Source: Selenomonas sp. (lineage in GTDB: Bacteria > Bacillota_C > Negativicutes > Selenomonadales > Selenomonadaceae). From it: DNA of 64,000 nucleotides. Each line of letters begins with the position of its first letter. Within the stretch, counting starts at the first letter, position 1. Below are positions 219 through 50,203 of this stretch, piece after piece. A program made the position numbers and the translations under genes. Under the pieces are notes generated by a model. The model did no database searches. It saw only the letters and a program-made list of their open reading frames with translations, and had not been told where the DNA came from. The stretch covers positions 16,661 to 80,660 of the forward strand of contig NZ_JAILPX010000074.1 in assembly GCF_024699275.1 (NCBI RefSeq), in the 5' to 3' direction.

Positions 219-731
219 TTACCGCACCTTCAGATCCAAGGCGACTTTATCGGTTTCCCAGGGAGAAATTACCGTATAGGGAATCTGCCATTTTTCCAGA
301 ATCGTGATTATCTGTTCATCTTTCTCCTTGGCCTGTTCCAGATTGGTTTCCTTGCGGCCGTCAATGCTGATGAATTCGTCGTTGCGCCGCAGCAGGTAAT
401 TGTAGTTCTCGTAGCGGTTGAACTCCTGCATCACCAGCGTATCAAAGGCCTCACTGGGTTCCCGGTTATAGATGATATTCAGAGGCAAAGGGGAATCACA
501 GACGGCGTATTCCACCCCGTAATCGGCCAGAGTCCTGGTGCGGTGAGCCTGTTCGGCAAACAGATAGAGCTGATCCTTGACAATATCGGTGGCATTCTGA
601 TACCAGAGCCACTTGGCGTACTCGCCCACCAACTCTGTCCGGTAACCTTTTCGCTTGAGCTTGGAATACACATCGGCAGCGATGGTGCTCTTGCCGATAC
701 CGGCGCCGCCAAAGAAATTCAAAACTTTCAA
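219..731 (-). CDS. P-loop (AAA_28-type) ATP-binding protein
   Basis: A protein of about 170 residues with a clear N-terminal Walker A motif, GGAGIGKST, directly after a hydrophobic strand (KVLNFF). The body, with ELVGEYAKWLW, a Cys-Asp-Ser-Pro segment and ITILEKW, resembles small AAA_28/nucleoside-kinase-like ATPases. The substrate is unknown. Start choice: an ATG exists at 737, but a GGGAGG ribosome site (738-743) abuts it with no spacer. The TTG at 731 lies 6 nt from that site and is the better start. The gene is followed after 4 nt by the CYTH gene, suggesting a two-gene unit acting on phosphorylated small molecules (inference). Confidence 0.7.
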   Translation of the reverse strand: MKVLNFFGGAGIGKSTIAADVYSKLKRKGYRTELVGEYAKWLWYQNATDIVKDQLYLFAEQAHRTRTLADYGVEYAVCDSPLPLNIIYNREPSEAFDTLVMQEFNRYENYNYLLRRNDEFISIDGRKETNLEQAKEKDEQIITILEKWQIPYTVISPWETDKVALDLKVR

Positions 732-754
732 TGTCATCCTCCCTAATCATAAAG

Positions 755-779
755 GGGCAACGTCATCAAGACGTTGCCC
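755..779. terminator. Hairpin with T-run, possible terminator
   Basis: A perfect 10-bp inverted repeat (GGGCAACGTC / GACGTTGCCC) with a 5-nt loop lies just upstream of the P-loop gene. The T-rich tract (TATTTTTT) is on the plus-strand side and the minus side has only TTT. It may end transcripts arriving from the MATE gene or act in either direction. Confidence 0.5.
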
Positions 780-832
780 TATTTTTTATGGTTTTAGCAC
801 GGTTGAATACCGCGGTCTCTTCTAGAAGTTTA

Positions 833-874
833 CCACGCCAGAGCGGCAAAAGCAAGGCGGCCGCTCTGGCGTGG
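833..874 (-). terminator. 15-bp stem-loop after the NRPS operon
   Basis: CCACGCCAGAGCGGC and its exact reverse complement are separated by 12 nt and begin 8 nt beyond the stop of the MATE-fusion gene. The stem is strong and GC-rich but is not followed by a T-run on the minus strand. It is most simply the end of the four-gene operon, possibly as an RNA-stabilising or weak terminator hairpin. Confidence 0.55.
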
Positions 875-881
875 CACGGAA

Positions 882-2642
882 TCAAATCGTCAAGGTAATG
901 GTATTGAATCCCTGATAATTGCGATAGAGGAACTGCTGGGCATGGGATTTTACCGCATGCAGAACCAAAAGCCGAATATCGTAATTTTCCTTTTGGGCAG
1001 ATAGTTTAGCCAGATTTTCGGATATCAGGGACAAGGGGTCCAGCTTTTCCCCATTGTTCCGCAAATGGAGCTGAAAAGAACCATCCTCTTTGGCCAAAAG
1101 CGTCAACTGTGTCAGCAGGGAATCATCATCCATGGATTGGGCCCGCTCAGCCATAAGGCCGCAGATTTCCTCCACCGCCAGACGCAGGGTATGACGTTTC
1201 TGGGAATCTGCCCCCCATTGGGCGGCAAAGGCTTCAATAGCATCCAGCTGTTCGGCTACAACAGCAAGTTTTCCCAGAAAGGACGCACTATAAATTCGCT
1301 CCGGAGATAGTTTTACCTGCTCGCCATTTTTGCGCTTGTAGAGATAGAGAATTATCAATGTGCCAATCTCTGCTAAGGGATAGACCAGCCAAAAGGCCGC
1401 AAAACCAAACTCAGCCAACAGGAAAGCCAGGGGCATACTGACCCCTAACCGCCGCAGGAACACAATCAGAAAAGCGCCCTTTTCATCTTCTTCGGTTTGC
1501 AGATAATTTTGTAAGAGCAAAGTAAGCCCCATGAATATGGTGCCAATACAGAATACCCGGGCTGCATAGTACGCAAGCTCAGCATCCTGGATATCCTCCA
1601 GGCCGAAAAGCAGATCCAGGATTTGGGGATACAGGATAACCAGCAAAGTGGCCAGGATACCCCAAAACAGGGAGTACCCCAAGGCATAGCGAAAGGTCCG
1701 ATGCAGCTCCGTCTGATTCCCTTCGGCGAAGAAGGTGGAAAAGAGCGGCTGGGACGTCTTGCCGATGAATTCGTAAAGGAAGATGAACAGCAAGGACAGA
1801 TTTTCAATGATGTTGAATACCGCTACCCCATCGGTTCCCGCCAGCTCCAGCACCAGATGGATAGCTGCCAGGGTAAAGATGGCGTCAAAGATATACTCCG
1901 AAGAGGTGGCAAAACCCAGCCGCAGCGGCTTAATGGCATCCCGCCAGGGAATAGTCCGGGAACGGAGGGATAGTTCACCATCTTTCCGAAAGAGGATATA
2001 TCCCAAAGCGATACCAACAGCCAACAGATTGGCGATAAAGAAGCCAAAGCTGCAGCCGGCAATCCCCCAGTCAAACACGAAGAGCAGAAGAGCACTGATG
2101 CCCAGATTCACCACCCCGCTGGCTCCTTGAATGACCACAGACAGATTATCCGCGTTGTCATTGCGAAGATAAGCGGTCAGCACTTCCATGAGGATTTCAA
2201 AGGGTATGCCCAGGAGAATGTACAGGATATAACTCCTGACCATCTCATAGACCACCCCATCCTGGGGACCGGTGCCCAGCATGGCCAGCAGGCTGTCTTC
2301 AAAGAGCAGGCCGGCTGCGGTAATGGTAAAGCCCACAACCGCAGATAGACGCAGACAAAAGTTGAACAGTCCCAAGGCATCTTCCTTTTTTCCTTCGTGC
2401 ATAAGGTTGCTGAAGACGATGGCTCCTCCCATGGAAAGGCCAAAGACGAAGAAAGTAGCTAGCAGGAACAACGGGGATACAAAGCCTACGGCAGCCAAAC
2501 CATCCATGCCGATGGCATGACCCACCAGAATGGTATCCCCCATCTCGGCTAAAGACAAGCCTATGGCTGCCAAGGGTGCAGGCAGAACCGCATGGAAAAA
2601 CATCCGGCGGGTAAAATACGCGTAATCGATTTTTGGGTTCAA
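882..2642 (-). CDS. MATE family exporter fused to a degenerate RsbW-like ATPase domain
   Basis: Residues 1 to about 455 form a complete MATE/NorM-type transporter of about 12 membrane segments, with the typical early motif (AEMGDTILVGHAIG) and a second-half counterpart. It would export small organic molecules using an ion gradient. Residues about 465-586 are a cytoplasmic extension resembling the GHKL domain of anti-sigma kinases (RsbW/SpoIIAB). It has an LRLAVEEIC helix in the N-box position, NNGEKLDP in the G1-box position and a C-terminal FNTITLTI strand. The N-box Asn, the G1 Asp and the G2 glycines are absent, so ATP binding or kinase activity may be lost. The start is a TTG preceded by GAAAGGA. 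It is the last gene of the operon, 19 nt after the NRPS. I infer that it exports the NRPS product and docks the STAS protein. Confidence 0.8.
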   Translation of the reverse strand: MNPKIDYAYFTRRMFFHAVLPAPLAAIGLSLAEMGDTILVGHAIGMDGLAAVGFVSPLFLLATFFVFGLSMGGAIVFSNLMHEGKKEDALGLFNFCLRLSAVVGFTITAAGLLFEDSLLAMLGTGPQDGVVYEMVRSYILYILLGIPFEILMEVLTAYLRNDNADNLSVVIQGASGVVNLGISALLLFVFDWGIAGCSFGFFIANLLAVGIALGYILFRKDGELSLRSRTIPWRDAIKPLRLGFATSSEYIFDAIFTLAAIHLVLELAGTDGVAVFNIIENLSLLFIFLYEFIGKTSQPLFSTFFAEGNQTELHRTFRYALGYSLFWGILATLLVILYPQILDLLFGLEDIQDAELAYYAARVFCIGTIFMGLTLLLQNYLQTEEDEKGAFLIVFLRRLGVSMPLAFLLAEFGFAAFWLVYPLAEIGTLIILYLYKRKNGEQVKLSPERIYSASFLGKLAVVAEQLDAIEAFAAQWGADSQKRHTLRLAVEEICGLMAERAQSMDDDSLLTQLTLLAKEDGSFQLHLRNNGEKLDPLSLISENLAKLSAQKENYDIRLLVLHAVKSHAQQFLYRNYQGFNTITLTI

Positions 2643-2661
2643 GGCATAATTCCTTTCTCCA

Positions 2662-5600
2662 TCAGTGGTCCAACAAATGCATGATTTCCTGCACTTTTTT
2701 ACCGGCCACTAAAGCATGGATAACCTGAGTATAATCGGCCATGAATCTCTGCACAAAGGCATCGCTGTATTCTTTGGTATTATAGGTCAAATTCAGATAG
2801 AAATCGTCTTGACGGCGGTGGACAAAGAAATCAAAATTCTCTTCCTCAAAGTCCTCGATTTCTTCGTAATAAGCCTTGCCACCACAGAAATCAAAGGCGC
2901 CGTCCACATCCTCGCCCTGATAGGCAAAGGCAGCAATCAAAGGCACAGGATCGCCTTCGTAGAGGGCATGACGCCGACACTGAAGAATGCTGTCCTGGGT
3001 CTCTTTGACAAAGCGTTCAGCGGTCATATCCTCCTGCCAACGGACGCAGAGGGGATAATGACGGTATATGGCCCCCATGGTGCGCTCATAACGAATATCA
3101 TCACGGCCGTTGTAGATGGTCAGGGCAGCGGCGGCCTGTTCGCCATTATTCCGCGCCTGCAACAGGCCAAAGGAAGCTGCCAGCAGACTGCCGTCAGTAA
3201 TTCCCTGGGCCTTGGTAAAAGCATCCACCGCTTTAAGGTCGATATGCAGCGGGACCATGATATCCCGCGTGTCATTTTCGCCCTTAGGATCTAAATCACC
3301 GGGCAGTTCACTTGGCCGCTGCGTAAAGGACTGCACATAGTTATGATTCCACTGTTGTTCCTGCTTATAAGCCTCCGTAGCCATGGTATCTTCAATTTCA
3401 TCATAGTAGTCGAAGATGGTGTATTCTTCCGGCTCCAATTCTTTGCCCTGATAGGCTGCATCGATATCTGCCAGGAAAATATTGAGGGAATCCCCATCAA
3501 TAATGGGATGCAGGAAATCAAAGTAGAATTCCTTGCTATGTGTTCCGTCAGCTTCTTCAATAAGGAAGAGCCGGGTAACGAACATGCGGGTTTCCGGCTT
3601 GTTCATGGACTGGCGTATACTTTTCTTTAGGTTATCGTAATCCTGCCGGGATATATGCTCAACCACGGGCTTTACAGCTGCCATATCACCGCTGCGCCAG
3701 CGCAGCTCACCTGTTTTGGTGGCCGTAAGCCGGGCATCCACAGCAGGATGGGCTTTTAACGTCGATTCAATGGCCGCAGCCAGTCGTTCCATATCCGTTT
3801 TGGGGTCCAGGGATACCGTGGCATCACAATGAAGACCATAGCCCTCCTCCAGGGAGTTGCCCCAATCATAATGGAGCTGATGCAAAGGACCAAAGAAATG
3901 GGTATCCCGGACCTTGCCCTGAGAAGAATTCTTTTGACGCTGATTTAAGAGACTGGCTATGCCCATGGGGGTCTTGCCCTCATAAATCAAGTTGAAATTC
4001 AACTGCAAATCCCGGCATTCTGAAAGGAGCCGGATCATGCTGAGGCTGTCGCCGCCAGCGGCAAAGAAATCCTCCGCTGCACTGACTCTGTCCATTCCTA
4101 AGGCCACACCGAAGCCCCGGGCAAGTTCTGCCTCCACATCATTCTTAGGTGCCACATAGGGAGTAGCACTGGCATAGATTTCCGGCTCTGGCAGAGCTCT
4201 GCGGTTCAACTTGCCATTCTGATTGCGGGGAATGTCCGGTATCTGCATGATGGCTGCAGGTACCATATAGGGTGGTTTGCGCTCCCGGATAAAATCAGCC
4301 AGGGCTTTGGGATCAATCGTTTCTGAAGATACCACATAGGCTGCAATGAACTTGCCCCCCGCGGGGTTGTCACAGGCCACCACGGCAGCATTTTCCACCG
4401 GTGGAAAATCGTGGATGACGCTCTCCACCTCGGCTAGTTCCACCCGGAACCCCCGAATTTTCACCAGACCATCCCGGCGGCCCACGAATTCGATATTGCC
4501 ATCGGGTAAATACCGGACAATATCACCGGTACGATAGGCCGTAGCATAGTCCGAATGCTGACTGAAGGGATTGGCAATAAAGACCTCCTGCGTCTTTTCC
4601 GGCCGGTTAAGATAACCGCCTGTAACCTGCACACCGGCCGTCCAAAGCTCGCCCAATGCCCCTGGCGGCACCCGGCGGCCGGCACTGTCCACAACGTAGA
4701 TAGCCGTATTATCCATAGGCGTGCCAATGGGAATATCGGGTTGGTATTTGGTCACATCATAACAGGTAATGGCAACGGTGGACTCGGTGGGGCCGTATTC
4801 ATTGGCCATGATATAGGGATAGACAGGCTCAAAGGGAACCAGTTTCTCTCCCCCGACCACGATATATTTCAAAGAGGGACAATCCATGGTCAGGGCAAAC
4901 TGCCGCCCCACCTGGCTGGGGAAATCTGCCAGATAGATTTGATGCTTGCGGATGAGCTGCGCCAGTGCCGGCAGGTCTAATTTCTTTTCTTCGGGAATAA
5001 CCACCACAGCGCCCCCCACCGTCAATATGGGATACATATCCGCCAGGGAGCCGTCAAAACCATAACTGTTATAGCAGGTTACCCGCTTATCTGCCGCAGA
5101 GTCAAAATGGTGCCGGTGCCAGGATGCAAAAGCCATGAGATTTCTATGCAGGAGACGCACGCCCTTGGGCACGCCCGTGGTGCCGGAGGTATAAATCAGC
5201 ATGAACAGGTCATCCGGCTGCGGCCCTTCGATGGCGGCCAGTTCTGTTGCATTTGGTTTGGGCAGTTGGGGAATTTCCGACAAGCGCAGGGTCAGCCCTT
5301 GAAAATCCGGGAAATTAGCCAAACGATCTGCCAGCTGATCATCCACAATCAACAGTTTGACTGCAGCATCCTTCGTCATAAAGGAGAGGCGCTCATCGGG
5401 ATAGTTGGGATCCAGCGGCTCATAGGCGCAACCGGCTTTCAATACCCCCAGGGAAGCAATGACCATGTATTCAGAACGGTCAAGCAGAACCGCTGCCGTA
5501 TCTCCTCGCCCTAATCCCTGTTGATGCAGGAAAAAGGCTAACTTATCGGAAAGTTCTGTTACTTGTGCGTAAGTATATTCCCGCTCTTCATAGATGACGG

Positions 5601-6291
5601 CAATATTATCCGGCATCCTTTGCGCAGCCGCCCGAAACTGGTCAATAATCGTAGACTGACGGTCATATTCCCGCTCCGTTTGGTTAAACCGATCCAAAAG
5701 ACTCATGGTTTCTGCTGGCGTAATGACCATATCTGCCAGCGTTTCAGCCTGCGCTAGATGCAAAAGGATTTCCCGCCAGGATAGTCCCATGGACTGGATA
5801 AACGCTTCAGAATAATGGGCAGATGCATAGCGGATTTCCAGTTTATCCATTGTCACCTGGAAAATCAGTGCCAATCCCGCTTGCTGCTTCAGAGGAATAT
5901 CTCCATCCAAGGCCAAGGCTATGCCCCGACCCTTCTCCTGCCCCAACAAATCCCAAACAGCTTCCCTTGTCCAGCTGTAGGCAGCAGCTTCCTTGAGCAT
6001 GGAGGCCGAAGCTGCTGCCAATTTCTGCGGAGAATCTTCCTGACGCCAACTCTGCCGCAGAGGCAGGAATTCCTGCTTTTCATAGACGATGAGCCCGGCT
6101 TCTGTAAGTCCTCCATATACCCCCAGCAGATAAAGCACACTGGCAAGCTTTTCCCCTTTGCTGCTCTCATGTTCATAGGCCAGTGTCCATTTCTGCCACG
6201 GATTATCGGCAGATTCCCGCCGGTCTGGCAAAGGCAGACAGTCCGGCATTTCATCCGCAAAATTTTTTTGACACCATGTTTCCTTATCCAT
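2662..6291 (-). CDS. Nonribosomal peptide synthetase, (partial C)-A-T-C
   Basis: About 1,209 residues. Residues 1-200 look like the C-terminal lobe of a condensation domain without the HHxxxDG half, ending in the usual linker (LLDRFNQTEREYD). The adenylation domain (about 205-700) carries all core motifs: LKAGCAYEPLDPNYP, YTSGTTGVPKG, NEYGPTEST, YRTGD, GRRDGLVKIRGFRVE and NGKLNRRAL. A carrier domain follows with FFAAGGDSL (Ser about 749), then a second condensation domain with HPIIDGDS (His about 928, Asp about 932). There is no thioesterase or reductase domain. A manual alignment to the GrsA pocket gives roughly D-G-A-D-V-G-E-V-A-K, which I cannot assign to a substrate. The ATG at 6291 has a GGGG ribosome site; a TTG one codon earlier is less likely. 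It sits 21 nt after the STAS-C gene. Confidence 0.9.
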   Translation of the reverse strand: MDKETWCQKNFADEMPDCLPLPDRRESADNPWQKWTLAYEHESSKGEKLASVLYLLGVYGGLTEAGLIVYEKQEFLPLRQSWRQEDSPQKLAAASASMLKEAAAYSWTREAVWDLLGQEKGRGIALALDGDIPLKQQAGLALIFQVTMDKLEIRYASAHYSEAFIQSMGLSWREILLHLAQAETLADMVITPAETMSLLDRFNQTEREYDRQSTIIDQFRAAAQRMPDNIAVIYEEREYTYAQVTELSDKLAFFLHQQGLGRGDTAAVLLDRSEYMVIASLGVLKAGCAYEPLDPNYPDERLSFMTKDAAVKLLIVDDQLADRLANFPDFQGLTLRLSEIPQLPKPNATELAAIEGPQPDDLFMLIYTSGTTGVPKGVRLLHRNLMAFASWHRHHFDSAADKRVTCYNSYGFDGSLADMYPILTVGGAVVVIPEEKKLDLPALAQLIRKHQIYLADFPSQVGRQFALTMDCPSLKYIVVGGEKLVPFEPVYPYIMANEYGPTESTVAITCYDVTKYQPDIPIGTPMDNTAIYVVDSAGRRVPPGALGELWTAGVQVTGGYLNRPEKTQEVFIANPFSQHSDYATAYRTGDIVRYLPDGNIEFVGRRDGLVKIRGFRVELAEVESVIHDFPPVENAAVVACDNPAGGKFIAAYVVSSETIDPKALADFIRERKPPYMVPAAIMQIPDIPRNQNGKLNRRALPEPEIYASATPYVAPKNDVEAELARGFGVALGMDRVSAAEDFFAAGGDSLSMIRLLSECRDLQLNFNLIYEGKTPMGIASLLNQRQKNSSQGKVRDTHFFGPLHQLHYDWGNSLEEGYGLHCDATVSLDPKTDMERLAAAIESTLKAHPAVDARLTATKTGELRWRSGDMAAVKPVVEHISRQDYDNLKKSIRQSMNKPETRMFVTRLFLIEEADGTHSKEFYFDFLHPIIDGDSLNIFLADIDAAYQGKELEPEEYTIFDYYDEIEDTMATEAYKQEQQWNHNYVQSFTQRPSELPGDLDPKGENDTRDIMVPLHIDLKAVDAFTKAQGITDGSLLAASFGLLQARNNGEQAAAALTIYNGRDDIRYERTMGAIYRHYPLCVRWQEDMTAERFVKETQDSILQCRRHALYEGDPVPLIAAFAYQGEDVDGAFDFCGGKAYYEEIEDFEEENFDFFVHRRQDDFYLNLTYNTKEYSDAFVQRFMADYTQVIHALVAGKKVQEIMHLLDH

Positions 6292-6312
6292 CAATCCCCA
6301 TCCCTTTTCCGT

Positions 6313-7908
6313 TTATTTGAGCAGTTCCATGATTTGAACGTTCTCATCCTGTAATCCCTGTACCATCTTTTCCATGGTGGCGGCAAACTTACGCATATTC
6401 CCCTCGGTGTAGCGGAAGTTGTCATAATCCAGTACCAGGGAATAGGTGCCATCATCATGGGAATTCATTTCGATATCCAACGTGTTATCGGCAGCTGAAA
6501 TATCATTGGCAGGCATTTCTACGACATTGGCTTCTCCACCGGCAAATTTCATGGAGCCCCGGCGTCCCATACTGCCCTTCTGCAGGATAAAACTGGGAAT
6601 ACCATCATCCAAATCCTCTTCATAGACCACACGCAGGCTCTTCCGGTATTGCAGTCCTTCGTTAATCTTATCTTCCAGTTCCGTTAAGTAGGTCAGCACG
6701 TCCATTTCCCGGCCAAACTTCCAACGCAGGGGGAACTGGTCAATCATCAATCCCATAAGCCGCCGCTCGGCAGAAGTCATGCGGCCATTGTGCACCCAGC
6801 CCAGAATGGCATCCTTCCGATTCCTTGTCTTGGCTAAAGCCAACAGCGCTGCTCCAATAAAAAAGGTATTTTCTGTGAAACTTTTACCCTTAAAGAACTT
6901 TTTATCCATTCCGGCAAAGGGAACCTCAATCTCATGTTCCGGCGTTTCCCGTTCGCCCTGTACATCCGGTTCGGGCAGATACTCTTCCTCCGTAAAACCT
7001 TCCAGCATCTTACGCCAGTAATCCTGACCCACCTGTCTTTCTTCCTCAGAAAGATTATTTTCGGACAGGATATAATCGCTGTACATATGAATTTTCCCTA
7101 AGCCCTTTACTTCTTCCCCTTTCATGATCTGATTATAGCGTTTTTCCAGATCCCGCCAAAAGAGCAGCACGATGGCTGTGCCGTCCATGATGGCATGATA
7201 GAAATCCATATAAAAGAGATTAGCTGAGGCCGTCTTCATCAGGTAGATACGGTAGAGCGGATGGTCAATCAATTCATAAGGAAGCTTCAGCTCCTGTTTG
7301 CGTTTTTCCAATGCTTCATCCGACAGGGTTTCCACGTAAACCTTGCCCACTTCCCCATCAAACCTTTGGCAGATTTCCCCGGTTTCCGGATGAAAGACCA
7401 GGCGGCAGCGGAAGATATCGTAGGCGGTCAGCAGGCTGTTGAGTGCCTCTGCCAGTTTTTCCATATTGATGGAGGAATCCATCTGAACCAACGCGCCGGT
7501 GTTCAGCATGGTGGACTGGGCTTTCTGGAAATGGGTATCCACCATCCAGCGCTGTACAGGCCGCAGCGGATAGAATATGGGGCTCTTTGCATCGGTTTCC
7601 CGTTCCACAATGGTGACCACATTATCAAAACGGGTGGCATTGAATACGCCCATCACATCTTCCGTAGGATAAAGTACCTTTATATCCCCACCCTGTTGGG
7701 TCATTTTTTTCTTGGCTATGATCAGGGAGCGTAATCCAGCCGATGCGATATAGCTCAATTCGGAAAAATCCAATTCCGCTTCCTGTATCCCCTCGGCTGC
7801 TTCAGCGAAGGCCTCATTGAAATCTCTGGCCTCCAGTGTGCTCAATTTTCCCTGCAGCTTCATTCTTAAATGGCTTCCCTGTTTTTCGGTGGTAATCATC
7901 AATCCCAT
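6313..7908 (-). CDS. STAS domain fused to NRPS condensation domain
   Basis: Residues 1-105 form a STAS (SpoIIAA/RsbV anti-sigma-antagonist) domain. It includes the strand-helix LDFSELSYIASAGLRSLI, in which Ser56 occupies the position phosphorylated by anti-sigma kinases. Residues about 110-531 are an NRPS condensation-type domain: FYPLRPVQRWM at its start, then FYHAIMDG (His238, Asp242, Gly243) matching the catalytic HHxxxDG apart from the first His, and an IGWVH/LMGLMIDQFPLR segment in the second lobe. The domain would condense or position acyl and aminoacyl groups for the neighbouring NRPS, which lacks a complete N-terminal C domain. A GAGGA site precedes the ATG. I know of no characterised protein with this architecture. 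Phosphorylation control of condensation is inference. Confidence 0.85.
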   Translation of the reverse strand: MGLMITTEKQGSHLRMKLQGKLSTLEARDFNEAFAEAAEGIQEAELDFSELSYIASAGLRSLIIAKKKMTQQGGDIKVLYPTEDVMGVFNATRFDNVVTIVERETDAKSPIFYPLRPVQRWMVDTHFQKAQSTMLNTGALVQMDSSINMEKLAEALNSLLTAYDIFRCRLVFHPETGEICQRFDGEVGKVYVETLSDEALEKRKQELKLPYELIDHPLYRIYLMKTASANLFYMDFYHAIMDGTAIVLLFWRDLEKRYNQIMKGEEVKGLGKIHMYSDYILSENNLSEEERQVGQDYWRKMLEGFTEEEYLPEPDVQGERETPEHEIEVPFAGMDKKFFKGKSFTENTFFIGAALLALAKTRNRKDAILGWVHNGRMTSAERRLMGLMIDQFPLRWKFGREMDVLTYLTELEDKINEGLQYRKSLRVVYEEDLDDGIPSFILQKGSMGRRGSMKFAGGEANVVEMPANDISAADNTLDIEMNSHDDGTYSLVLDYDNFRYTEGNMRKFAATMEKMVQGLQDENVQIMELLK

Positions 7909-7918
7909 GGATAATTCC

Positions 7919-10099
7919 TCACTTTCCCCTATAGCGCAATCCCAGCATGGTTATATCATCGGATTGCTCAGCATCCCCTGCATATTGCCGGACAACCTGC
8001 AGCATCTGGTCTAAAATGGCCGATACATCCTGGCGGTCAGACAAATGATTAAGCCCCTCTTTAATGCGGGCTTCGGTAAACAATTCATCCTGTTCATTCA
8101 TGGCTTCAGAAACACCGTCCGTATAGATGAACAGGGTGTCCTGCGGCGATAAATCGATACTCTGCTGGGTATAATCTCTTTCGGTTAAACCCAGTACACA
8201 GTTTTTCTTCAAGGGCATGAATTCATAGTGGCCTTCATGCCCTAAGAGTGGAGGGCAGTGCCCGCCGTTGGCATAGGTGAAGTGCCCCGTCTCCAAATCC
8301 AGCACGCCGATAAATACCGTAACGAACATTGTGGCTTCGTTATTTTGACAAAGCTCATTATTAGCTTTCGACAAGATTCGTCCCATATCCTCCGGGTTAT
8401 CTGCCCGCAGTACGGCATTTTTCAGCACAGACTGGGATTTGGCCATGAACAGCGCCGCAGGGACTCCCTTGCCGGATACATCTGCCACGGTAACCACAAG
8501 ATAGCGTCTGCGCAGCAGATAAAAATCGTAAAAGTCACCGCCGACGTTCTTGGCTGGTTCCATCAAAGCATAAATATCGAACTCTGGATGGTCGGGGAAG
8601 TCCGTAAAATTCTGGGGCAGCATGTCCGCCTGAATTTTGCCTGCTACGGATAATTCTGTACGGGTACGCTCCTCCTTGGCTGCTACATTGGCCAGATTTT
8701 TCATGTATTTTTTCAGTTCATCCGTCATGAAATTAAAGGCCTCGGCCAAATGCTCCAGCTCATCACCTGTGGTCAGGGTAATCTTCTTGTCAAAATTTCC
8801 CCGGGCAATCTCGCGGGCACCTTCAGCCAAGCGGCGTACGGGACGGGTAAAGCGTCCCGCCAGCCAATCGCTGATATAGATGAGCAAGATCAGAATGGGA
8901 ATCAGGAGCAACAACCCCCAGAGCAGAACCGTGGATAAGGTTTCCTGCAGGGTTTTCTGGAAAGCCTGCACCTTGGTCATGACATCACTTTCTACCTTTT
9001 CTACCGGATCCATGATTTCCGAGCTATCCAGCAAAAGACAGAGACTCCAGCCGATGTTTTGCAGCGGCGCATAGGCCAGATAATAGGATTTCCCATCCAG
9101 CTCTACGGAAGTAACACATGTATCGCCTTTGGTCATACACTGGGCAGCTTCTGCTATACCGGGGTTATCGGACTGACGAAGGTCTTTTTTCTCAGATGCC
9201 ACCGACAACAACCCTTCTTTTTCAGAAGAGAGGATGATATTTCCGGAACCATCCACCACAAAACTATCCCCGTTGTACTCCATGGCAGTTTCCACCAAGG
9301 ATTCATAAATATCTTCCACAGTGTAACTTATCCCCATTACCCCGGCAAAACCATTGGCATCGTAATAGGGCAGAGCACAGGTCATGTCCAGATTTCCCTC
9401 TGCGCCGATATAGGCATTGGAAAAAATCGGTTTATCTGCATCTTTGCCCTGGATATACCAGGTCCGGTTGCGATGGTCATAGTTATTCAGGAAGTCCCTC
9501 TTGTGCTCCGGGGATGGAAATATACTGGTTTGCGTATTATCCGAGGTAACCAGATCAAGGCAGAGCAGATATCCGTTCTTGGACCCTGCATATAAAGAAG
9601 ACCGTCCGCCCATATAGGCCAGACTCATGGAACGCAGCACATCGGCAAAATTAGACGCCAGGGCGATTTCTTTTTCCATTTCCGGGCTGACACCCTGCTG
9701 CAGCATAGCCGCGCTGTAATGAATGTAGGGCTTGCCAGACAGGATATCCGCTTCCTTGCGCGTATCGGGCAGACTGCGAGGCCGGTAATCTTCCGGATGA
9801 GTCAGAATGATGTACATGGCATTGGCCATATAGCGTAAATCATCCTGAATATTATAGAGTTCCCGATCCAGATGCTGGGCCTTGGTGGCCGTAACTTCCT
9901 TCAATCGGGCTCGAGCAAAACGTTCGGTATAGCCCCCCATAGAGTCCGTTAAGAATAGGCCCAGGTTCGCACTTTCCCCCTCCATGGCCTTCCGGGTTTT
10001 GGTCAGACTGTATATGGATAAGCCAGCTACTGCCAGCGATGTTGTTATTACACCAGAGAGCAGGATGAACAAAACTTTCCTGCGAATTGATAACCTCAA
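7919..10099 (-). CDS. Membrane sensor protein phosphatase (Cache-HAMP-SpoIIE/PP2C, RsbU-like)
   Basis: The N-terminus has a membrane segment (about residues 9-32), then about 340 extracytoplasmic residues resembling a double Cache sensor, a second membrane segment, a HAMP linker and a C-terminal SpoIIE-type PP2C domain. All metal-binding motifs are present: GGDFYDF, ADVSGKGVPAALFM, IYTDGVSEAMN and SDDITML. Such enzymes dephosphorylate STAS proteins, and a STAS protein is the next gene, 10 nt away. Start: the frame is open to 10213, but the TTG at 10099 has a GAGGGG site 6 nt upstream. A likely promoter at 10125-10153 would place the transcription start downstream of the other ATG. The ligand sensed is unknown. 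Confidence 0.85.
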   Translation of the reverse strand: MRLSIRRKVLFILLSGVITTSLAVAGLSIYSLTKTRKAMEGESANLGLFLTDSMGGYTERFARARLKEVTATKAQHLDRELYNIQDDLRYMANAMYIILTHPEDYRPRSLPDTRKEADILSGKPYIHYSAAMLQQGVSPEMEKEIALASNFADVLRSMSLAYMGGRSSLYAGSKNGYLLCLDLVTSDNTQTSIFPSPEHKRDFLNNYDHRNRTWYIQGKDADKPIFSNAYIGAEGNLDMTCALPYYDANGFAGVMGISYTVEDIYESLVETAMEYNGDSFVVDGSGNIILSSEKEGLLSVASEKKDLRQSDNPGIAEAAQCMTKGDTCVTSVELDGKSYYLAYAPLQNIGWSLCLLLDSSEIMDPVEKVESDVMTKVQAFQKTLQETLSTVLLWGLLLLIPILILLIYISDWLAGRFTRPVRRLAEGAREIARGNFDKKITLTTGDELEHLAEAFNFMTDELKKYMKNLANVAAKEERTRTELSVAGKIQADMLPQNFTDFPDHPEFDIYALMEPAKNVGGDFYDFYLLRRRYLVVTVADVSGKGVPAALFMAKSQSVLKNAVLRADNPEDMGRILSKANNELCQNNEATMFVTVFIGVLDLETGHFTYANGGHCPPLLGHEGHYEFMPLKKNCVLGLTERDYTQQSIDLSPQDTLFIYTDGVSEAMNEQDELFTEARIKEGLNHLSDRQDVSAILDQMLQVVRQYAGDAEQSDDITMLGLRYRGK

Positions 10100-10124
10100 T
10101 AGTATCCCCCTCAAAGATAATGAC

Positions 10125-10153
10125 ATGATACGCAATCGTATAATGTAGGACAA
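10125..10153 (-). promoter_or_regulatory. Putative promoter of the phosphatase-NRPS-MATE operon
   Basis: On the minus strand TTGTCC (10148-10153), a 17-nt spacer and TATCAT (10125-10130) form a sigma-A-like promoter. The predicted transcript begins about 20 nt before the TTG start at 10099, which agrees with that start and argues against the longer reading frame. Confidence 0.45.
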
Positions 10154-10263
10154 AATAGAACATTCGACTTTATACGTGTAAAATCCTGCTTTCAGGAGGA
10201 TAATCCTTATCACGGACAGAAGTTTATCCTTGCCTGCGTACAGTTAAACCGCGTATTTATTGG

Positions 10264-11460
10264 TTAGGGCTTGGCAGCCGTAATGATTTTTGTACGAAAC
10301 CAGCAGGCATCGATTAACAGCAAAGCTGCCACCAGCAGAAAGAGATTGCGGATTCCCATAAGGGCCGCCAGCTGTCCACCGAAGAAGGCTCCGGTAAACA
10401 TGCCAATGAATTGGGCCGATTGGTTTAGGCCAAAGATGCGTCCCATCAATGCCGGAGGTGCCAGTTGACGAATCAGATTATTCGTCGATGGCATCAGTCC
10501 GGCAATGGCAATGCCATGGAAAAAACGTAGCAGCCCCAGCTGCCAGGGCGCTGTTACAAAGCCCTGAGGGATGGAAACCAGTCCGGAAATCAACAGGCAA
10601 CGGAAGAGAATCTTTTCTGAGCCAATGCGGTCAGCCAGCAGGCCCAGCCGGGAGGCAAAGAGCATACTAGCAAAGCCCGCAGCAGAAAAGACGGCTCCAG
10701 AGATTAGGGCAATATGGTCGATATTGCCGGCGATTTCCTGAATGTAGACCGTCAGAATCGGCGCGATACAGGACAGGGAAAAATGCAGCAGAATGGTGGT
10801 CAAAAACACGCCGAGGATGGTACTCTGCTGGCAGATTTGCCGGAAGGATGCGGTTGATTCTGCTTGGACAGCAGGAACTGGCTTATGCTTTTCCTGTACC
10901 TGGGTCAGCGCCAAAAATCCTAACAAACAGCAACAGCCAATAAACAGGAAGGCATCGCGGAATCCCAAAAGCTCACTGAGCCAGCCGCCAAAAATTGGTC
11001 CCAACAGGCCGCCGGAAACCTGAGCGGTAAAGAACATCCCCAGGGCCCAGCCAGAATGTTCCTTAGGCGTTTCCTGGGCCAGCAGGGGAATAACAGCGGC
11101 CTGAAAACCGCTGAGGCAGCCCTGCATCAGGCGCAGAATAACCAAGTGCCAGACACTCTGGGCAAAGCCCATGCCCAGCATGATGATGCCAAGCCAGCCC
11201 GAAGCCCGCAGTATCATGGGTTTGCGCCCCACCTTATCCGATAAACGCCCCCAAATAGGCGAAAAAATAGCCAGACTGATGAAATTGCAGCCAAAGACGA
11301 TGCCAGCCCAGCGGGCGATGTCTGCCGGATCATTTACCCCCAATTCCGCAATATACAGGGGCAGAATTGGTGCCATCTGGCTCATACCGATGGACACGAT
11401 AAAGGATGCTGCGCAACAAATATAGAGATTCTTTTTCCACAAAGGAAAAGCAGTTGTCAT
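10264..11460 (-). CDS. MFS multidrug-type exporter (MdtG-like)
   Basis: About 398 residues with 12 predicted membrane segments. The loop 2-3 signature FSPIWGRLSDKVGRKPMIL and the loop 8-9 counterpart ASRLGLLADRIGSEKIL identify a major facilitator. The N-terminal half (SIGMSQMAPILPLYIAELG, then a LMQGCLSGFQAAVIPLLAQE motif C-like stretch) resembles the proton-coupled drug exporters MdtG/YceE. The ATG at 11460 has a GTGGGGGC site 5 nt upstream and is preferred to the in-frame start 11 codons earlier. A TATAAT box (11498-11503, minus) lies about 38 nt upstream. The gene stands alone; its substrate is unknown. Confidence 0.75.
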   Translation of the reverse strand: MTTAFPLWKKNLYICCAASFIVSIGMSQMAPILPLYIAELGVNDPADIARWAGIVFGCNFISLAIFSPIWGRLSDKVGRKPMILRASGWLGIIMLGMGFAQSVWHLVILRLMQGCLSGFQAAVIPLLAQETPKEHSGWALGMFFTAQVSGGLLGPIFGGWLSELLGFRDAFLFIGCCCLLGFLALTQVQEKHKPVPAVQAESTASFRQICQQSTILGVFLTTILLHFSLSCIAPILTVYIQEIAGNIDHIALISGAVFSAAGFASMLFASRLGLLADRIGSEKILFRCLLISGLVSIPQGFVTAPWQLGLLRFFHGIAIAGLMPSTNNLIRQLAPPALMGRIFGLNQSAQFIGMFTGAFFGGQLAALMGIRNLFLLVAALLLIDACWFRTKIITAAKP

Positions 11461-15404: not shown

Positions 15405-15749
15405 TCATTTGTTATTCTGTTGGCCATGTTGAACCCCATCAGGTGGAGGCAACGGCTTACCATCTTTATCCTTAGGCGGTTCAGGTGGCTGCTCACCGTT
15501 ATGATTTGCTTTATCATGCCCCTGTAACTGCTTTCCATCTGGAGGCGGAAGCGGCTTTCCATTTGCATCTTTGGGTGGTTCAGGAGGCTGTTCGCCGTTC
15601 TTCATTTTCGGTGGCTGCTTATCTTTTGTGCTTTGACTTACCTGCTGAATACTAGCCGCATCAATATTGTGCGTAGCTGCCATTACAGGGATAGCACTAA
15701 AAGCCATAACTCCTGCCACCACGCCAGCTAGTAAAAGTTTCTTGCTCAT
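15405..15749 (-). CDS. Secreted proline-rich repeat protein (paralogue of 29318 gene)
   Basis: 114 residues starting at the ATG at 15749. An AAAGGA site lies 8 nt upstream; an earlier ATG at 15758 abuts it. An N-terminal signal peptide (KKLLLAGVVAGVMAFSAIPVMA, cleavage after AMA-type VMA) is followed by a polar mature part. That part has two copies of a roughly 21-residue unit beginning NGEQPPEPPKD and ending PLPPPDG, and a Gln/Asn-rich tail. No known domain; it is possibly a cell-envelope or extracellular disordered protein. The near-identical gene at 29318 shares signal peptide, repeats and promoter. The four 11-bp-spaced TTAA boxes upstream suggest control by an OmpR/PhoP-family regulator. 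Confidence 0.75.
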   Translation of the reverse strand: MSKKLLLAGVVAGVMAFSAIPVMAATHNIDAASIQQVSQSTKDKQPPKMKNGEQPPEPPKDANGKPLPPPDGKQLQGHDKANHNGEQPPEPPKDKDGKPLPPPDGVQHGQQNNK

Positions 15750-15798
15750 GTGTCTCATCCTTTCACAACAAACATAGCATTAACCATTTACATTTTGT

Positions 15799-18370: not shown

Positions 18371-21300
18371 TTATTGTAGCTTCGTGAAGATATATACGGC
18401 ACGGATTTGATTCGGCATAGCACCGATATCTTGAATAGCGGATAGGATACCAGTCGAAAGAACGGCCCGAACCGCATTTTTACTTCCATGCATCAACACA
18501 TTCAATGAATCTTTATCCTCTGGATAAATTGCCACAATACCATTACCATACGTTACTTCATAATTTCCCTCGCGACTTTGATACATGAAATTGTAATCCT
18601 TAATCGAGTCCTTACGAATCTCCGAAGGCTCTGGAATCGTAACTTTTTGTGATGCCGGCATAATGGCTAATTTTTCCGGATTATAATTGATGGTGTAAAT
18701 TCCATCTAGCGTTTTTGATTCACCATCTGTATGCAGAACCGGGATAGCCCCCTGTGTTTCGCTGCGGCCATCTTCGCCTTTATGTTCACCAACATGATTT
18801 TCCTGCGTAGAAGATGTATTTTCTCCCAACACAAGACCAAAAGAACCATCAGCGGCTACTTCAAAGGACTGTGTTGATGGCTCATTGTCACCTCCCGTAA
18901 CCACAATAGAATTCGGTTGTAATAATGATCCTGCTATATTCACCGGAGCTTCGATATTGGGGTCCATCGTGCCGACTTCGGAAACAAAGCCGGCCTGGCC
19001 GCCAGAAACAGGTGCTGTCGATGAAAGCACAGACGAAACAGTTTGCGGTGTATCTGAACCGATTGTATGCGGGAGATTTGACTGTGTCCCTGCATCAATA
19101 CTTGTTTTGATAGTTGTATTCGTAACCAATTCAATTGCTATGTTTTCCGTCGGCTGCGGCTGCTCTGGTACCTCAGGCTCCGGTGTAGTCGGTTGTGATT
19201 CCGGTTCCGTTACCTGCGTATCGGGTTCATCTGTCGGCTGCGGCTGCTCTGGTACTTCAGGCTCCGGTGTAGTCGGCTGCGATTCCGGCTCCGTTACCTG
19301 CGTATCGGATTCATCTGTCGGTTGAGGTTTCTCTGGTACGGTTGGTTCCGGTGTAGTCGGTTGTGATTCCGGTTCCGTTACCTGCGTATCGGATTCATCT
19401 GTCGGTTGAGGTTTCTCTGGTACGGTTGGTTCCGGTGCATTTTGCTGCGATTCCTGCTCCGTTATACTTTTTTGTGCCTCTTCAGCATAAATCGTTAAAG
19501 TTCCTGGGGCATAAGAGAAGTTATAATTTTTCGGATCTGTCCCTACAAAAGTCCAACCATCACTGACGTGAATTGCATCCTTGTACACACCAGCATCCGT
19601 TGTCGGCTTCATATTTTCATCATAGTACATCGTGACATGGGTGATTTGATCATCATCGAGTAAACCACGGCCAGAACCGGTTGTACCGCGCTCTACCGTA
19701 TAGGCCTCTACTACGGGATTTTCTTCACCATAGGTACGTGAAGCAGAGCCTGCCGTAATTAAAACATCCCGCGGTTTGATATCCAGTTTTCCCGCTTGTT
19801 TATCAATTACGTAATCTCCTTTCTTCGCGTTTCCTATAACATTGACATCGGTGATATCAATTGCATAAGTACCAACGTTTGACCGTGAATTAGCCGTACT
19901 GGAATATTTCGTATTCAGACTATCGCCTGCCGCCAGTGTTCCTTCAGAAATTTTATACTGGAAATTTGGATTGTTTTCACCATATATTCGCGAATCATCG
20001 ATTGCCTGGATGGTTAAGTGACGCGGAACAATCTTAAAATCAATATGAATGGTTGCATTGAGATTATTATCGCCCGTGTATTCCACCAGACGATCCGTTT
20101 CGGTGGCAGTCCCCTGCGGAACACTGCCATAGACGGCACCTTCTGCCGGACCACCAGTTGTATTGACGTCGGTCGTTTTGGTTAATTTTTCATCCCATCG
20201 ATAGGATTTATCCGGCTCATTGCGCAATGCATCAAGCAACTGTTTATATTGGCTCCGCTCACGCTCCGTTCCCTTATGGTCTTTATCGGCCAGTTCCACC
20301 TTGAAGGCATCGCTGGTAATGAAATTGGCATTGCCATCACCGTAAGTGCGTTCGGAGGTTACGTTTACGACCAAGGGCTTGGTATAGGCCAGGACATTTC
20401 CATCCCAACCATAATCTTTCTGTTTCGGATTTTTGATTTCCGAATCATCCTGGGTATCGTAACGAATTCCGTTGGGAACCAGTGTGCCAGGGTTATCGCC
20501 TTCCGGGCTGTCCGTATGGATAATCCACCGCTGCGATTCTGGCGTCTTTATGACTTCTTTGCCTGGTTTAGTATTTTCATTGATGAAATGACCCTTGGAC
20601 GCATCCAGCATCACTCCCCCCACGGTCGATTCAATACTGCCCGTGGAATCGATTTTTAGGTTACCATCCGTCTGGAAAGTAACCGTCTCCCCTTGAATAT
20701 GGCCCGTAATCGTGGTTGTATTTTCGGTAACGGTTTTACCGTTTGCCGGTGTATTGTTTATGGCCACGGTTTTACCAGTCACATCGCCGATTTCCTTGAT
20801 ATGGTTTTCCGGATTGGACAGGTTGATATCGCCACCTGATGCAATTGTTACCTTATCGGCAGACAGGCCGCCACCGGTACTGCTCTGGTCGACATCACCT
20901 TTCGTCTGGATATTAACCACACTGGTGGTCGTGCCATTACTCTTAGGCGCCGTAAAATCATTGACCGTAATCTTACCCGTATGATCCTCGCCGCCAAAAT
21001 TGATTTCGTTAAAGCCATGGAAAATCGCAGTTTCCTTGGTCGTATCGGTATCAAACCAGGCCTTATCAATATCCAGCCCCTCTGTACCGGTCTTACCAAT
21101 ATGGATTTCCCGTTCCGGGTCAAAGGTATCCAGGGTCAACTTGCCGCCCTGTGTCGTCTTAATACTATTGCTCCCCTGGCTCGTGTCGTTCGTCAGACTG
21201 TTGGTCGAAATGTTGACATTACCCGTTGTGGTTTCAATATCCACACCGGAGAGTACAACGTTCTGGCTATGGATGTTATAATCCTTTTCGCCAAAGGACA

Positions 21301-24300
21301 TCTTGCCGCTGATTTTGACCGCCGCCTGGGCATTCCGATACCCTTGGATTACGTTAATCGTATCCTCGAAGTTGATGGTGCCCGCCTGCTCATAGCTGCC
21401 CTTGCCGGCACCGCGGCCGATATTGATGGCATCAAAGCCCTTGGCAAAAACACGCGTCTTAGAATCCGCATCAAAGTAAGACGAATCCAGATACAGCGCC
21501 TCCAGATACAGCGCCTCCAGCCCCAACTGCCCGTCAAAGCTCCCGACTTTAATGCCGCGATTCTCATCAAGGGTCCGGATATTGAGCTGACCGCCTTTAG
21601 CACCCGGCTTGCCAGCCGTTTTGATAGTTCCTTCCGCGTTGTTGCTCGTCAGATCTACCGTATCAGCAGTCAGCGTAATATTGCCGCTTTCAGTCTCGAT
21701 GGTGCTGGCCCCATTCATCTTGAAGGTTCCCGCCATAAATTCGATACCATCTGTTCCGGCTAAATGGATATGGGTCTGTCCGCTGATTGTTGTGGTTTTA
21801 GACTTGCTTACCGCCTGCTCAAAACCTGAACGAACCGTTGTGGGATCCAGGAAATGCAAATCTGTCGACGAATCGATGTTTGCATCTCCATAGCCACTGC
21901 CCAAATAGATATGACGGAAGCCATCTGCGATGGCGGGATTCTTATCATAACCGCCAAACCATGCCGATTGGAGATTCAAAGCCCCCTGGCCGTGCTTGTT
22001 AATGGCTGTATCGCCAATATTCAGGGCAACGCCCTCAGTCTTCTGCTCCATGGTAAGGTCGCCCTTGCCTGCAAGTTTTGCCTCATCCACGAGATCGAGC
22101 TGATCCGTCTTGAGATGGATATCACCGGTCGTGGCGGTAATGCCTTCGAGGCCGCCGACATTGCCGACCGAAAGCTTTTTTCCAGCCGCTTCTTCAATCG
22201 CAATGCTTTTTGCCCTAGCCGCGACCTTGCCAATCGCATTATTGCCTTCAAGCTCCACAGCGCCGCCCACAAAAGCCACATTATCCGCCTGAAGTCCCGA
22301 GCCGCTAATTGTACCTGCAGTGCTGGTGGTCAGCACTGTCGGCTTTTGCAGGGTCCCGCCAGCAATCGTAATGGCCTGCTGGTCCTCGTTGCCGATGGCA
22401 AAACTGCTGAAACTATTGGCAAATGCTCCTGTACCGTCAAGTAACGCGTCATAGAGATTGAGACCGCCAGCCTGTTTATCCTTGGTAATGGAAATAGTTG
22501 TCGAACCGTCGTAGGTTGAAAGGCCTAAGGTGCCTGTGCCCAGAATGGTCTTGCCATCCGTTCCTTTAAGCTGGCCGAGGTCATTGGTATAGATATTGAG
22601 CTGGCTGGCACCAGCCGCACCGCTTTGGGCTTCAAAACTGCCGCCTATTTCATTGGCAATCCTGCCGGCCTTTAGTGTAACGGCCTTGCCAGCTGCCACG
22701 CTATTGGCGCCTTTGAATACAATGGCGCCGCCGGCTCCATTCTGCAGGGTCAGGCTATTCGTAAAGCCAACCCGGTCAATGGACAGCGTGCCAGTTCCGG
22801 TTTCATTTCCCAGCATCAGCTCCGTAAAGCCATCGCCGAAAATACCGCCATTGATATCAGCCGCCGTAATGTGCAGCCCGTTTTCCGCTGCCGTCAGATC
22901 CTGCTCCACCAACATATTGGTCCCGGCATTCTTCGTCGACAGCGTCAACTCACCTTTTCCCTGAACATTCGTTGTGGCGTCACCGCGGTCTACCGTCAGA
23001 TTATCCGTCTTCATGGCAAAGCTGCCCGATCCGCCATCGATAAGCGCATCAGTTCCGATCGTTAACGCATCAGCCGTCAGTGTGACACTGCCTTTGCCAG
23101 CCGCTGAGGATTCCACAGGTCCTGCTTGAACGGCCAGCTTTGCCCCATCGCCCAGCTTGATTTCCTTAGCCATTGCATTGACCGTGGTATTCGCACCATT
23201 AATGGTCAGCGTCTTACCGGCAGCAAGCTCAATCGCACCATCCGAACTCCCCAGAGTAAGTTCCGTAGCGGCCGCCGGTTCGGTACTGCCCAGCGTGACA
23301 TCCTCCATAACGTGGACGCCCTTAGCACCGGAAATCTTAACGGATTTATCGATTCCTCCCTGATACAGGTAAACATTCTCCTTCGTGGTAATACCGAAGT
23401 CACTGAATCCCGTCAGGTTGGAATTTACCGTGCCATAGCCAATTTTATAGCCCTGCTCCTCACCATCCGGCAAGGAAAAACCGGCACCACCCAGATAGAT
23501 GTTTTTGCCCTCAGGCGTCGTGATATTAAGCTTGCCCGAGCCATTGATGATTCCCTCGCCTAAGTCGAGACTATCCGTCAGATTCAGATTCAGGTTGTGA
23601 TTCGCAATATCGGTTGTACTATCTTTGTCCAGTTGCAATCCTGTCGCATGAACCGTCAGATCACCGCCCACGATATTGCTGTCGGCAAATTCCACCTGAT
23701 TTTCGGTGCGCACCGTGGTTTTCGAAGAGAAATTCGTATGCTTGATGATGACTTTGCCCGTTTGGGAAACGCCGTCCTGCTCATCGGTCCGGCGGCCAAT
23801 GATGAGCTCACCATAAGAATTACCGAACGCCCCCGTCTGGGCAAATGCATCGCTGTCAATATTCAGTGCGCCCTCATGTTCCTTCGTATCGATGGCAATT
23901 GTCTTGTCGGCAGTAGTGGTATAGACCTGCACCTTGCCGCTTGTCGTCACCTTGCCCGTCGCTTTTCCCTTGGCAATCGCATCGGCCGAAATCGAGATAT
24001 CGGCAGCACCGGTATCAATTGTGCCCATGGTCAGCCCCTTATCCGCCGCCATGGTAATCTTAACCGCACCAGCTTTGGTGGTTATGCCCTCTGCCGTTGC
24101 AGTCTGGTCTCCGTTGCGGTTTTCAACAGAACCAATCGTCATATCGGTTTCGTTGTTCACCGTCAATGCACCGGAAATGTTCGCCGCTAAGGTCTTAATT
24201 TCGTTACGTTCTCCCGTAAGATCTGCCTTCCCGCCCTGCAAAAGCAAAGCATCGGCCTGAATGCTGCCACCGTCTTCGGCAATGCCCTTCTCAGCCGCCA

Positions 24301-43282: not shown

Positions 43283-43287
43283 GAATA

Positions 43288-45309: not shown

Positions 45310-45322
45310 ATTCAACAGCTCC

Positions 45323-47909: not shown

Positions 47910-47931
47910 TTCATCACCTTTTCTATTCGGA

Positions 47932-48699: not shown

Positions 48700-48711
48700 G
48701 TTCATTCCCTC

Positions 48712-49353: not shown

Positions 49354-49375
49354 ATTCATATCCCCCATTGTCTGC

Positions 49376-50179: not shown

Positions 50180-50203
50180 ATTCATTTCCTCCTTGTAACT
50201 GTA

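Follow-up and report, generated by a model that had tools for sequence, protein, structure and literature searches.

In a 64,000-nucleotide (nt) stretch of a Selenomonas sp. genome (NCBI RefSeq assembly GCF_024699275.1, contig NZ_JAILPX010000074.1, positions 16,661 to 80,660 of the forward strand; hereafter the window), four closely spaced genes combine parts of a bacterial partner switch with a small nonribosomal peptide synthetase (NRPS) and a MATE-family exporter. We propose, tentatively and at a little under an even chance, that this is a sigma-independent partner-switching operon controlling the NRPS and the exporter, in which the antagonist is part of an enzyme and the C-terminal tail of the exporter acts as its docking partner. 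The logic is that of RsbU, RsbV and RsbW in the Bacillus sigma-B pathway. The first-pass annotation of this DNA had described a sigma-B style switch wired to an NRPS and its exporter. Its phosphatase, its STAS domain, the fusion of that domain to an enzyme and the linkage of the genes were borne out by our analysis, but its reading of the exporter tail as the kinase was not. The features of the operon are listed below in window coordinates.

754..780, both strands: terminator-like hairpin past the last gene, from a consensus scan
882..2642, minus: MATE exporter with a C-terminal HATPase-like tail, 586 amino acids (aa), from Pfam and fold matches
885..1307, minus: degenerate RsbW-like tail, residues 446-586, with the N-box Asn replaced (EEICGLM)
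2662..6294, minus: one-module NRPS, 1210 aa, with an N-terminal extension of ~205 aa followed by adenylation (A), thiolation (T) and condensation (C) domains, from Pfam
2704..3837, minus: C-terminal condensation domain of the NRPS, from Pfam
4180..5655, minus: adenylation domain, whose specificity positions read D-G-A-D-V-G-E-V-A
6313..7908, minus: STAS-condensation (STAS-C) fusion, 531 aa, from Pfam; the best PDB matches of its model are NRPS condensation domains
6316..7575, minus: free-standing condensation domain, His238-x3-Asp242-Gly243
7579..7908, minus: STAS domain, with putative phospho-acceptor Ser56 (codon 7741-7743) in YIASAGLR
7919..10099, minus: dCache-HAMP-PP2C (SpoIIE) sensor phosphatase, from Pfam; the frame reaches 10213 and TTG 10099 is the presumed start

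Domains of the four genes

In the direction of transcription the order is phosphatase, STAS-C fusion, A-T-C NRPS and tailed MATE, all on the minus strand. The open reading frames (ORFs) span 7919-10213, 6313-7908, 2662-6294 and 882-2642, and the gaps between the genes are 10, 18 and 19 nt, in agreement with the 10-21 nt reported earlier. The domain make-up proposed for the four genes was likewise upheld by Pfam (scores are given in bits and compared with family cut-offs), with the RsbW-likeness of the tail coming from profile-profile comparison. Beyond these genes, the profiles used found no further STAS, kinase or PP2C in the window. The hairpin at 754-780 is weak when taken alone, the region 600-10600 holding 14 terminator-like sites against a mean of 10.7 in shuffled sequences. 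Relatives were studied by alignments, profile searches and genome scans. A pattern-anchored scan of the genomes of 84,980 species with two peptide patterns gave 82 relatives, of which 80 were fetched as loci (L numbers below); near-identical loci are counted separately, and some pairs come from the same genome, L026/L075 judging by title and L013/L071 and L016/L027 judging by isolate.

The phosphatase has the make-up of the sensor-linked PP2C/SpoIIE component of an RsbU/RsbV/RsbW-type module, scoring 156 bits for SpoIIE/PP2C, 65 for dCache_1 and 58 for HAMP, and it carries the PP2C motifs GGDFYD, ADVSGKG, YTDGV and SDDITML. Its best NCBIfam match is SiaA, at 96 bits against a cut-off of 700. 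The gene was called correctly in the first-pass annotation, but the start given there, 10153, is probably wrong: because a Shine-Dalgarno sequence, GAGGGGG, found by eye at 10112-10106, sits just upstream of TTG 10099, this codon is a more probable start than either 10153 or 10213.

The STAS-C protein scores 41.8 bits for STAS (cut-off 22.6) and 137 for Condensation, and its AlphaFold model has a mean pLDDT (predicted local distance difference test) of 83. Ser56 is kept in 45/45 aligned STAS rows, counting the window and L088, a duplicate of L011, and the condensation-motif residues His, Asp and Gly are likewise invariant in 45/45 aligned rows. By its sequence, the domain is a candidate STAS antagonist with Ser/Thr at the conserved position. 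A search with the protein returned 325 relatives, and both domains are present in 117 of the 120 listed.

The NRPS contains all three domains of a single module with their catalytic and phosphopantetheine motifs: A at residues 214-705, GGDSL in T and LHPIIDGD in C. The Pfam scores are 252 bits for AMP-binding, 21.8 for PP-binding (cut-off 20.8) and 97.5 for Condensation, and the N-terminal ~200 residues have no Pfam match. Family searches found no thioesterase or reductase in the four proteins, among the best 25 of 106 families in the case of the NRPS; release of the product may be carried out by the terminal condensation domain. The specificity positions of the A domain, which we mapped by eye, presumably read D-G-A-D-V-G-E-V-A. 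Excluding frames shorter than 600 aa or scoring below 400 bits against the A domain of the window, the pattern DG[AGTC]DVGE[VI][SA] is present in 23/25 rows (22/24 without a duplicate), L030 and L035 being the deviating ones. It is common to Negativicutes and three of four Lachnospiraceae/Oribacterium loci (L028, L038 and L039; not L035). On this by-eye mapping, the acidic residues at two of the positions might suit a basic amino-acid substrate.

Linkage of the gene set across genomes

By type, 43 of the scan loci carry a STAS-C fusion and 34 a related condensation domain without STAS, with no countable condensation gene in L077-L079. Where at least 1.5 kb of sequence follows the STAS-C gene, the next recognised gene within 200 bp is the NRPS in 22/42 and the MATE in 19/42, and the remaining one (L018) has an overlapping NRPS ORF. 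A MATE gene lies within 9 kb after STAS-C in 39/42; the three exceptions are on contigs that stop within 3.3 kb. The four-gene order, which the first-pass annotation proposed to look for in other genomes, is complete at 15 of the 43 STAS-C loci (L001-L004, L006-L013, L016, L029 and L075). An additional free STAS gene stands between phosphatase and STAS-C in L013, L016, L029 and L075; the NRPS frame of L002 is shortened to 638 aa, and the phosphatase of L008 is truncated at the contig end. Many rumen bacteria have the four genes side by side. Going by record titles, the hosts are Selenomonas (including S. ruminantium S137 and ATCC 12561), Succiniclasticum ruminis DSM 9236, assemblies of Selenomonadales, Veillonellaceae and Acidaminococcaceae, and one metagenome-assembled genome (MAG) labelled Fretibacterium. 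A second switch-like set, comprising a free STAS, a 1302-aa NRPS and a PP2C, was observed just upstream of the main cluster in L029 (537-7274).

The reverse test started from the STAS-C, tailed-MATE and NRPS proteins and covered 189 genomes from the order to which S. ruminantium S137 belongs, with at most 7 or 3 candidates scored per genome. At E≤1e-60 there are 20 tailed-MATE matches in 19 genomes, and 20/20 adjoin a STAS-C or NRPS gene (18 from coordinates, 2 from reading the contigs). At E≤1e-200 there are 17 NRPS matches in 16 genomes, and 16/17 lie beside another gene of the set; the odd one is a different protein of 2446 aa, 39% identical. STAS-C relatives occur at E≤1e-40 in 77/189 genomes, with the complete fusion (query start ≤21) in 28 of the 77. 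With 20/20 MATE and 16/17 NRPS matches linked, the earlier concern that homologues of the genes might mostly occur apart does not hold for STAS-C, NRPS and tailed MATE across the 80 loci and 189 genomes. These three are nearly always found together, and the linkage counts reject a chance neighbourhood.

The phosphatase is linked more loosely than the other three genes, although it often travels along. When the NRPS is present, a PP2C gene lies within 4 kb upstream in 15/20 STAS-C loci, and among the NRPS-bearing loci it is missing there from L005 and from four of Lachnospiraceae/Oribacterium (L028, L035, L038 and L039).

DUF6056 membrane proteins, often at least two, were also seen by STAS-C/MATE or C-only/MATE pairs in L015, L017, L023, L026, L031, L032, L040 and L072; the assignment is by Pfam for the L023 pair and by sequence cluster for the others.

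The exporter tail and the free kinases

The MATE protein scores 95.6 bits for MatE, and a search with it returned 102 relatives. Its model (mean pLDDT 85) shows a MATE fold, with MATE transporters as the best PDB matches; the transporter part dominated the fold search of the full model. The tail has a HATPase_c_2 match of 23.2 bits, which is below the cut-off of 27.4, and it is therefore called RsbW-like from its profile-profile (hhalign) match to the free kinases of relatives (probability 96.8%, E 2.8e-10). Compared with PDB sequences, the tail profile gave two chance matches only. The profiles thus indicate that the tail is homologous to RsbW-type kinases.

The N-box Asn is required for Mg-ATP binding in the HATPase kinase fold. 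In our alignment, made without L088 (the same stretch as L011) and without MATE frames below 520 aa, this residue is present in 0/23 tails of the window-type subfamily versus 10/10 free kinases, and none of the 23 tails has a complete G-G-x-G motif. The window operon itself has no intact N-box kinase, contrary to the first-pass view that all three parts of the switch are present; in relatives a separate intact kinase is found. Outside this subfamily, the tails of a second STAS-C group (L040 included) have Asn in 3/15 and His in 12/15, those of the C-only group have Asn in 0/14, and those of the other tailed MATE proteins fetched in 11/13.

Two simple explanations of the tail were considered and discarded. 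An ordinary kinase is ruled out by the count of 0/23 against 10/10. Decaying debris is ruled out by the ratio of nonsynonymous to synonymous substitution (dN/dS), which is 0.02-0.19 for the tail (11 pairs), close to the 0.02-0.22 of the STAS domain; the values for the condensation domain and the transporter are 0.07-0.17 and 0.04-0.15, and all are rough, with synonymous divergence above 1 in several pairs. Judged by its residues, the tail is not a credible kinase and appears to be a non-kinase relative of RsbW; it is under purifying selection.

A working kinase with an unusual active site, which would make the four genes a complete switch after all, is in our view improbable. The tail is indeed homologous to RsbW-type kinases and keeps one or both N-box Glu, and among the 13 tails of the other tailed-MATE group, 11 of which keep Asn, three stand directly behind a larger NRPS (L096, L097 and L099). 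However, within the window-type subfamily neither the Asn nor a complete G-G-x-G motif occurs, and a separate intact kinase is linked to the gene set at five loci. The three tailed MATE genes just named (L096:5342-7093, L097:4838-6583 and L099:6014-7765), immediately after larger NRPS genes and with the N-box Asn intact, are possible exporter-kinase fusions in their own right.

The five loci with an intact kinase in the same gene run are L006, L008, L011, L012 and L105, of which L006/L008 and L011/L012 are close pairs. All of these free kinases have intact E-E-N, D-x-G and G-G-x-G motifs. In the first four loci the run continues after the MATE gene with STAS, kinase and a second PP2C, and in L105 it reads STAS-C (cut by the contig start), NRPS, STAS, kinase and PP2C, with no MATE between. 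The free-kinase profile matches a solved RsbW (6m36) at 1.1e-8. Small free HATPase frames of 136-223 aa, recognised from frame length, are present in 8/8 and 13/14 of the genomes searched (none in G018). In the Selenomonas and Anaerovibrio genomes examined, kinases are encoded elsewhere, near STAS, PP2C, a second HATPase-tailed MATE or a condensation protein with a cyclic-nucleotide (cNMP)-binding domain, in varying combinations.

Related architectures were also noted. In L081 (8464-10371), L084 (9549-11402) and L090 (6106-7974), a condensation domain is fused to a weak cyclic-nucleotide-binding-like domain (a sub-cut-off Pfam match), with an intact RsbW-type kinase and a STAS gene nearby. The His-x3-Asp-Gly pattern had no match in these three fusions, and their condensation domain may for this reason be a pseudo-enzyme. 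STAS is also fused to an aminoglycoside-phosphotransferase/kinase-like domain, a label read off the sequence, in L078 (16096-17649, where a HATPase is fused as well), L091 (8386-9591), L092 (1531-2781), L093 (4943-6199) and L094 (1093-2283). A HATPase-tailed MATE is nearby in L091-L093, and L093 also adjoins NRPS genes.

Proposed mechanism, precedents and significance

In the proposed mechanism, the dCache domain of the membrane phosphatase would bind an extracellular ligand and thereby render the phosphatase active, and the active PP2C domain would dephosphorylate Ser56 of the STAS domain fused to the condensation domain. The opposite reaction would be performed by a separate RsbW-type kinase, encoded in the gene run or elsewhere depending on the relative; we infer this from its intact motifs and its linkage to the gene set. 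The phosphorylation state of Ser56 would then set the partner of STAS-C, either the kinase or its working partners, and the MATE tail may serve as the docking site for the dephosphorylated form. STAS-C, the A-T-C NRPS and the exporter would in this way need the signal in order to assemble at the membrane, and the product, presumably a small N-capped amino acid or short peptide, would be made and exported. Docking is the least certain of these steps, since each of the two partners, STAS and tail, can evolve without the other: the tail is missing from L028, L035 and L039, and C-only Selenomonadales possess it without a fused STAS. The domains, conserved residues and linkage, the loss of kinase motifs and purifying selection in the tail, and the free kinase in relatives are established directly, while binding, phosphorylation, product and export are inferred.

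Several observations weigh against this mechanism. Of the 36 STAS-C loci with at least 2.5 kb of upstream flank, no more than 20 have a PP2C gene inside the 4 kb preceding STAS-C. In L028, L035 and L039 the STAS-C and NRPS genes accompany a tail-less MATE of 441-454 aa, and Lachnospiraceae/Oribacterium loci combine a tail-less MATE with the lack of an adjacent PP2C. Many Selenomonadales have a tailed MATE next to a condensation domain without STAS. An NRPS of the window type was not found in several Selenomonadales with STAS-C and MATE; genomes with this finding are G004, G011, G012, G014 and G015, of which G011 and G012 are MAGs and possibly incomplete. Finally, sub-cut-off SigBFG matches occur in 8/8 relatives, with frames of 253-267 aa at 94-110 bits in 6/8; these frames we provisionally take for motility-type sigma factors, and a sigma-factor target of the switch is conceivable.

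As some lineages yielded no such NRPS, STAS-C and MATE may be the older core. Taken further, the condensation domain of STAS-C would have no particular tie to this NRPS; STAS-C and MATE would be an ancient core making or moving another product, for example together with DUF6056 membrane proteins, and the NRPS an optional supplier. MATE does directly follow STAS-C in genomes where the NRPS was not found, often near DUF6056 genes, and relatives with the condensation domain only also lie next to MATE, within 300 bp in 13/34. We nevertheless regard this as unlikely, as in the window type the NRPS stands between STAS-C and MATE, a setting shared by 16/17 NRPS matches, and the specificity positions of the A domain are common to Negativicutes and L028, L038 and L039, with L035 differing.

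It is improbable, in our estimate, that the operon is an ordinary partner switch acting on transcription, with incidental fusions. Classical PP2C/STAS/kinase modules regulate sigma factors, and the eight relatives carry the sub-cut-off SigBFG matches mentioned above. However, no SigB/F/G match exceeds the cut-off in any of these eight relatives (one of 14 control genomes passes), and the STAS domain belongs to an enzyme in 43 loci. Pfam also showed no sigma factor in the 45 distinct ORFs of the window submitted to it (small ORFs only partly scanned), which bears out the first-pass remark that none is nearby. In favour of a transcriptional role, control of NRPS expression was suggested for a similar gene set in the NRPS clusters of Methanobrevibacter ruminantium M1 (mru0066-0071 and mru0512-0516), where an NRPS is surrounded by serine phosphatases, an antagonist of an anti-sigma factor and a MatE efflux gene, and a second cluster has phosphatase, antagonist and anti-sigma kinase; sensing, expression control and export were proposed (Leahy et al. 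2010, PMC2812497). That organism is an archaeon, its NRPS has two modules and a terminal domain named thioesterase, and the portions of the account that cover the clusters mention no STAS-C fusion or HATPase tail, the comparison being one of descriptions and not of proteins (PMC2812497). With such a gene set described in 2010, the novelty of the Selenomonas operon is smaller than first supposed; its apparently new elements are the fusions and the pseudokinase tail.

The proposed partner-switching operon shares with RsbU-RsbV-RsbW of Bacillus the PP2C, STAS antagonist and HATPase kinase families, and the free kinases found in relatives have RsbW as a PDB match. Unlike the Bacillus system, it has no SigB-like target over the cut-off in the eight relatives, its STAS is fused to a condensation domain, and the HATPase domain that it encodes is a degenerate one attached to a transporter. 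The covalent STAS-C fusion hints at a possible direct activation of an enzyme by STAS, which would be a SiaABCD-like output. In SiaABCD of Pseudomonas aeruginosa, a HAMP-PP2C phosphatase and a kinase together determine whether a STAS-like protein is phosphorylated, and the target of this protein is an enzyme and not a sigma factor, although the output there is a diguanylate cyclase, SiaC is a separate protein, and the parts described include no NRPS or exporter (PMC7647112, PMC8457831). SiaC-SiaD is thus a precedent for a STAS-like protein that directly controls an enzyme (PMC8457831). A further parallel is RsbW3 of Mycobacterium smegmatis, an RsbW homologue whose reported role, antagonism directed at RsbW1, relies on protein interaction; it belongs to a sigma-factor pathway, and the portions of its description at hand do not mention a transporter fusion (PMC7693655). 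In the excerpts of open-licence PubMed Central literature, among the matches listed, there is no description of a STAS-condensation fusion or of an NRPS-linked HATPase-tailed MATE, and the strings 'peptide synth', 'condensation' and 'efflux' do not turn up in a review of STAS-only proteins.

Other features of the window include a two-partner secretion (TPS) pair at 18371-29131, with a 3024-aa TPS-domain exoprotein bearing MBG repeats and a ShlB/FhaC-type partner; histidine-degradation genes (aromatic amino acid lyase, urocanase, amidohydrolase/imidazolonepropionase-like and HutD) with an amino-acid ABC transporter at 41473-51730; and, at 15405-15758, a small secreted-looking protein with EQPPEPPKD-type proline/lysine-rich repeats and no Pfam match.

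Broader still, and more doubtful than the mechanism itself, is the idea of a distinct class of signal-controlled natural-product systems in rumen Firmicutes, in which the switch would regulate the assembly of a biosynthetic complex on its exporter and not transcription. STAS would reside in a condensation enzyme, a pseudo-RsbW domain in the MATE pump would act as its phospho-dependent receptor, and a shared free kinase would also serve other condensation-domain, cNMP-binding and MATE-HATPase modules of that cell. Because the four-gene set is present in strains (S. ruminantium S137 and ATCC 12561, Succiniclasticum ruminis DSM 9236) and not only in metagenome assemblies, these ideas are open to experiment. 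The output of NRPSs is usually ascribed to transcription and substrate supply. If the proposal is true, a phospho-switch on a condensation enzyme, together with a kinase-derived exporter domain, would provide direct, fast and signal-gated synthesis and secretion. After SiaABCD, it would be a further case of partner switching with an output other than a sigma factor, and it would exemplify a kinase fold turned receptor. The product may be relevant to rumen ecology.

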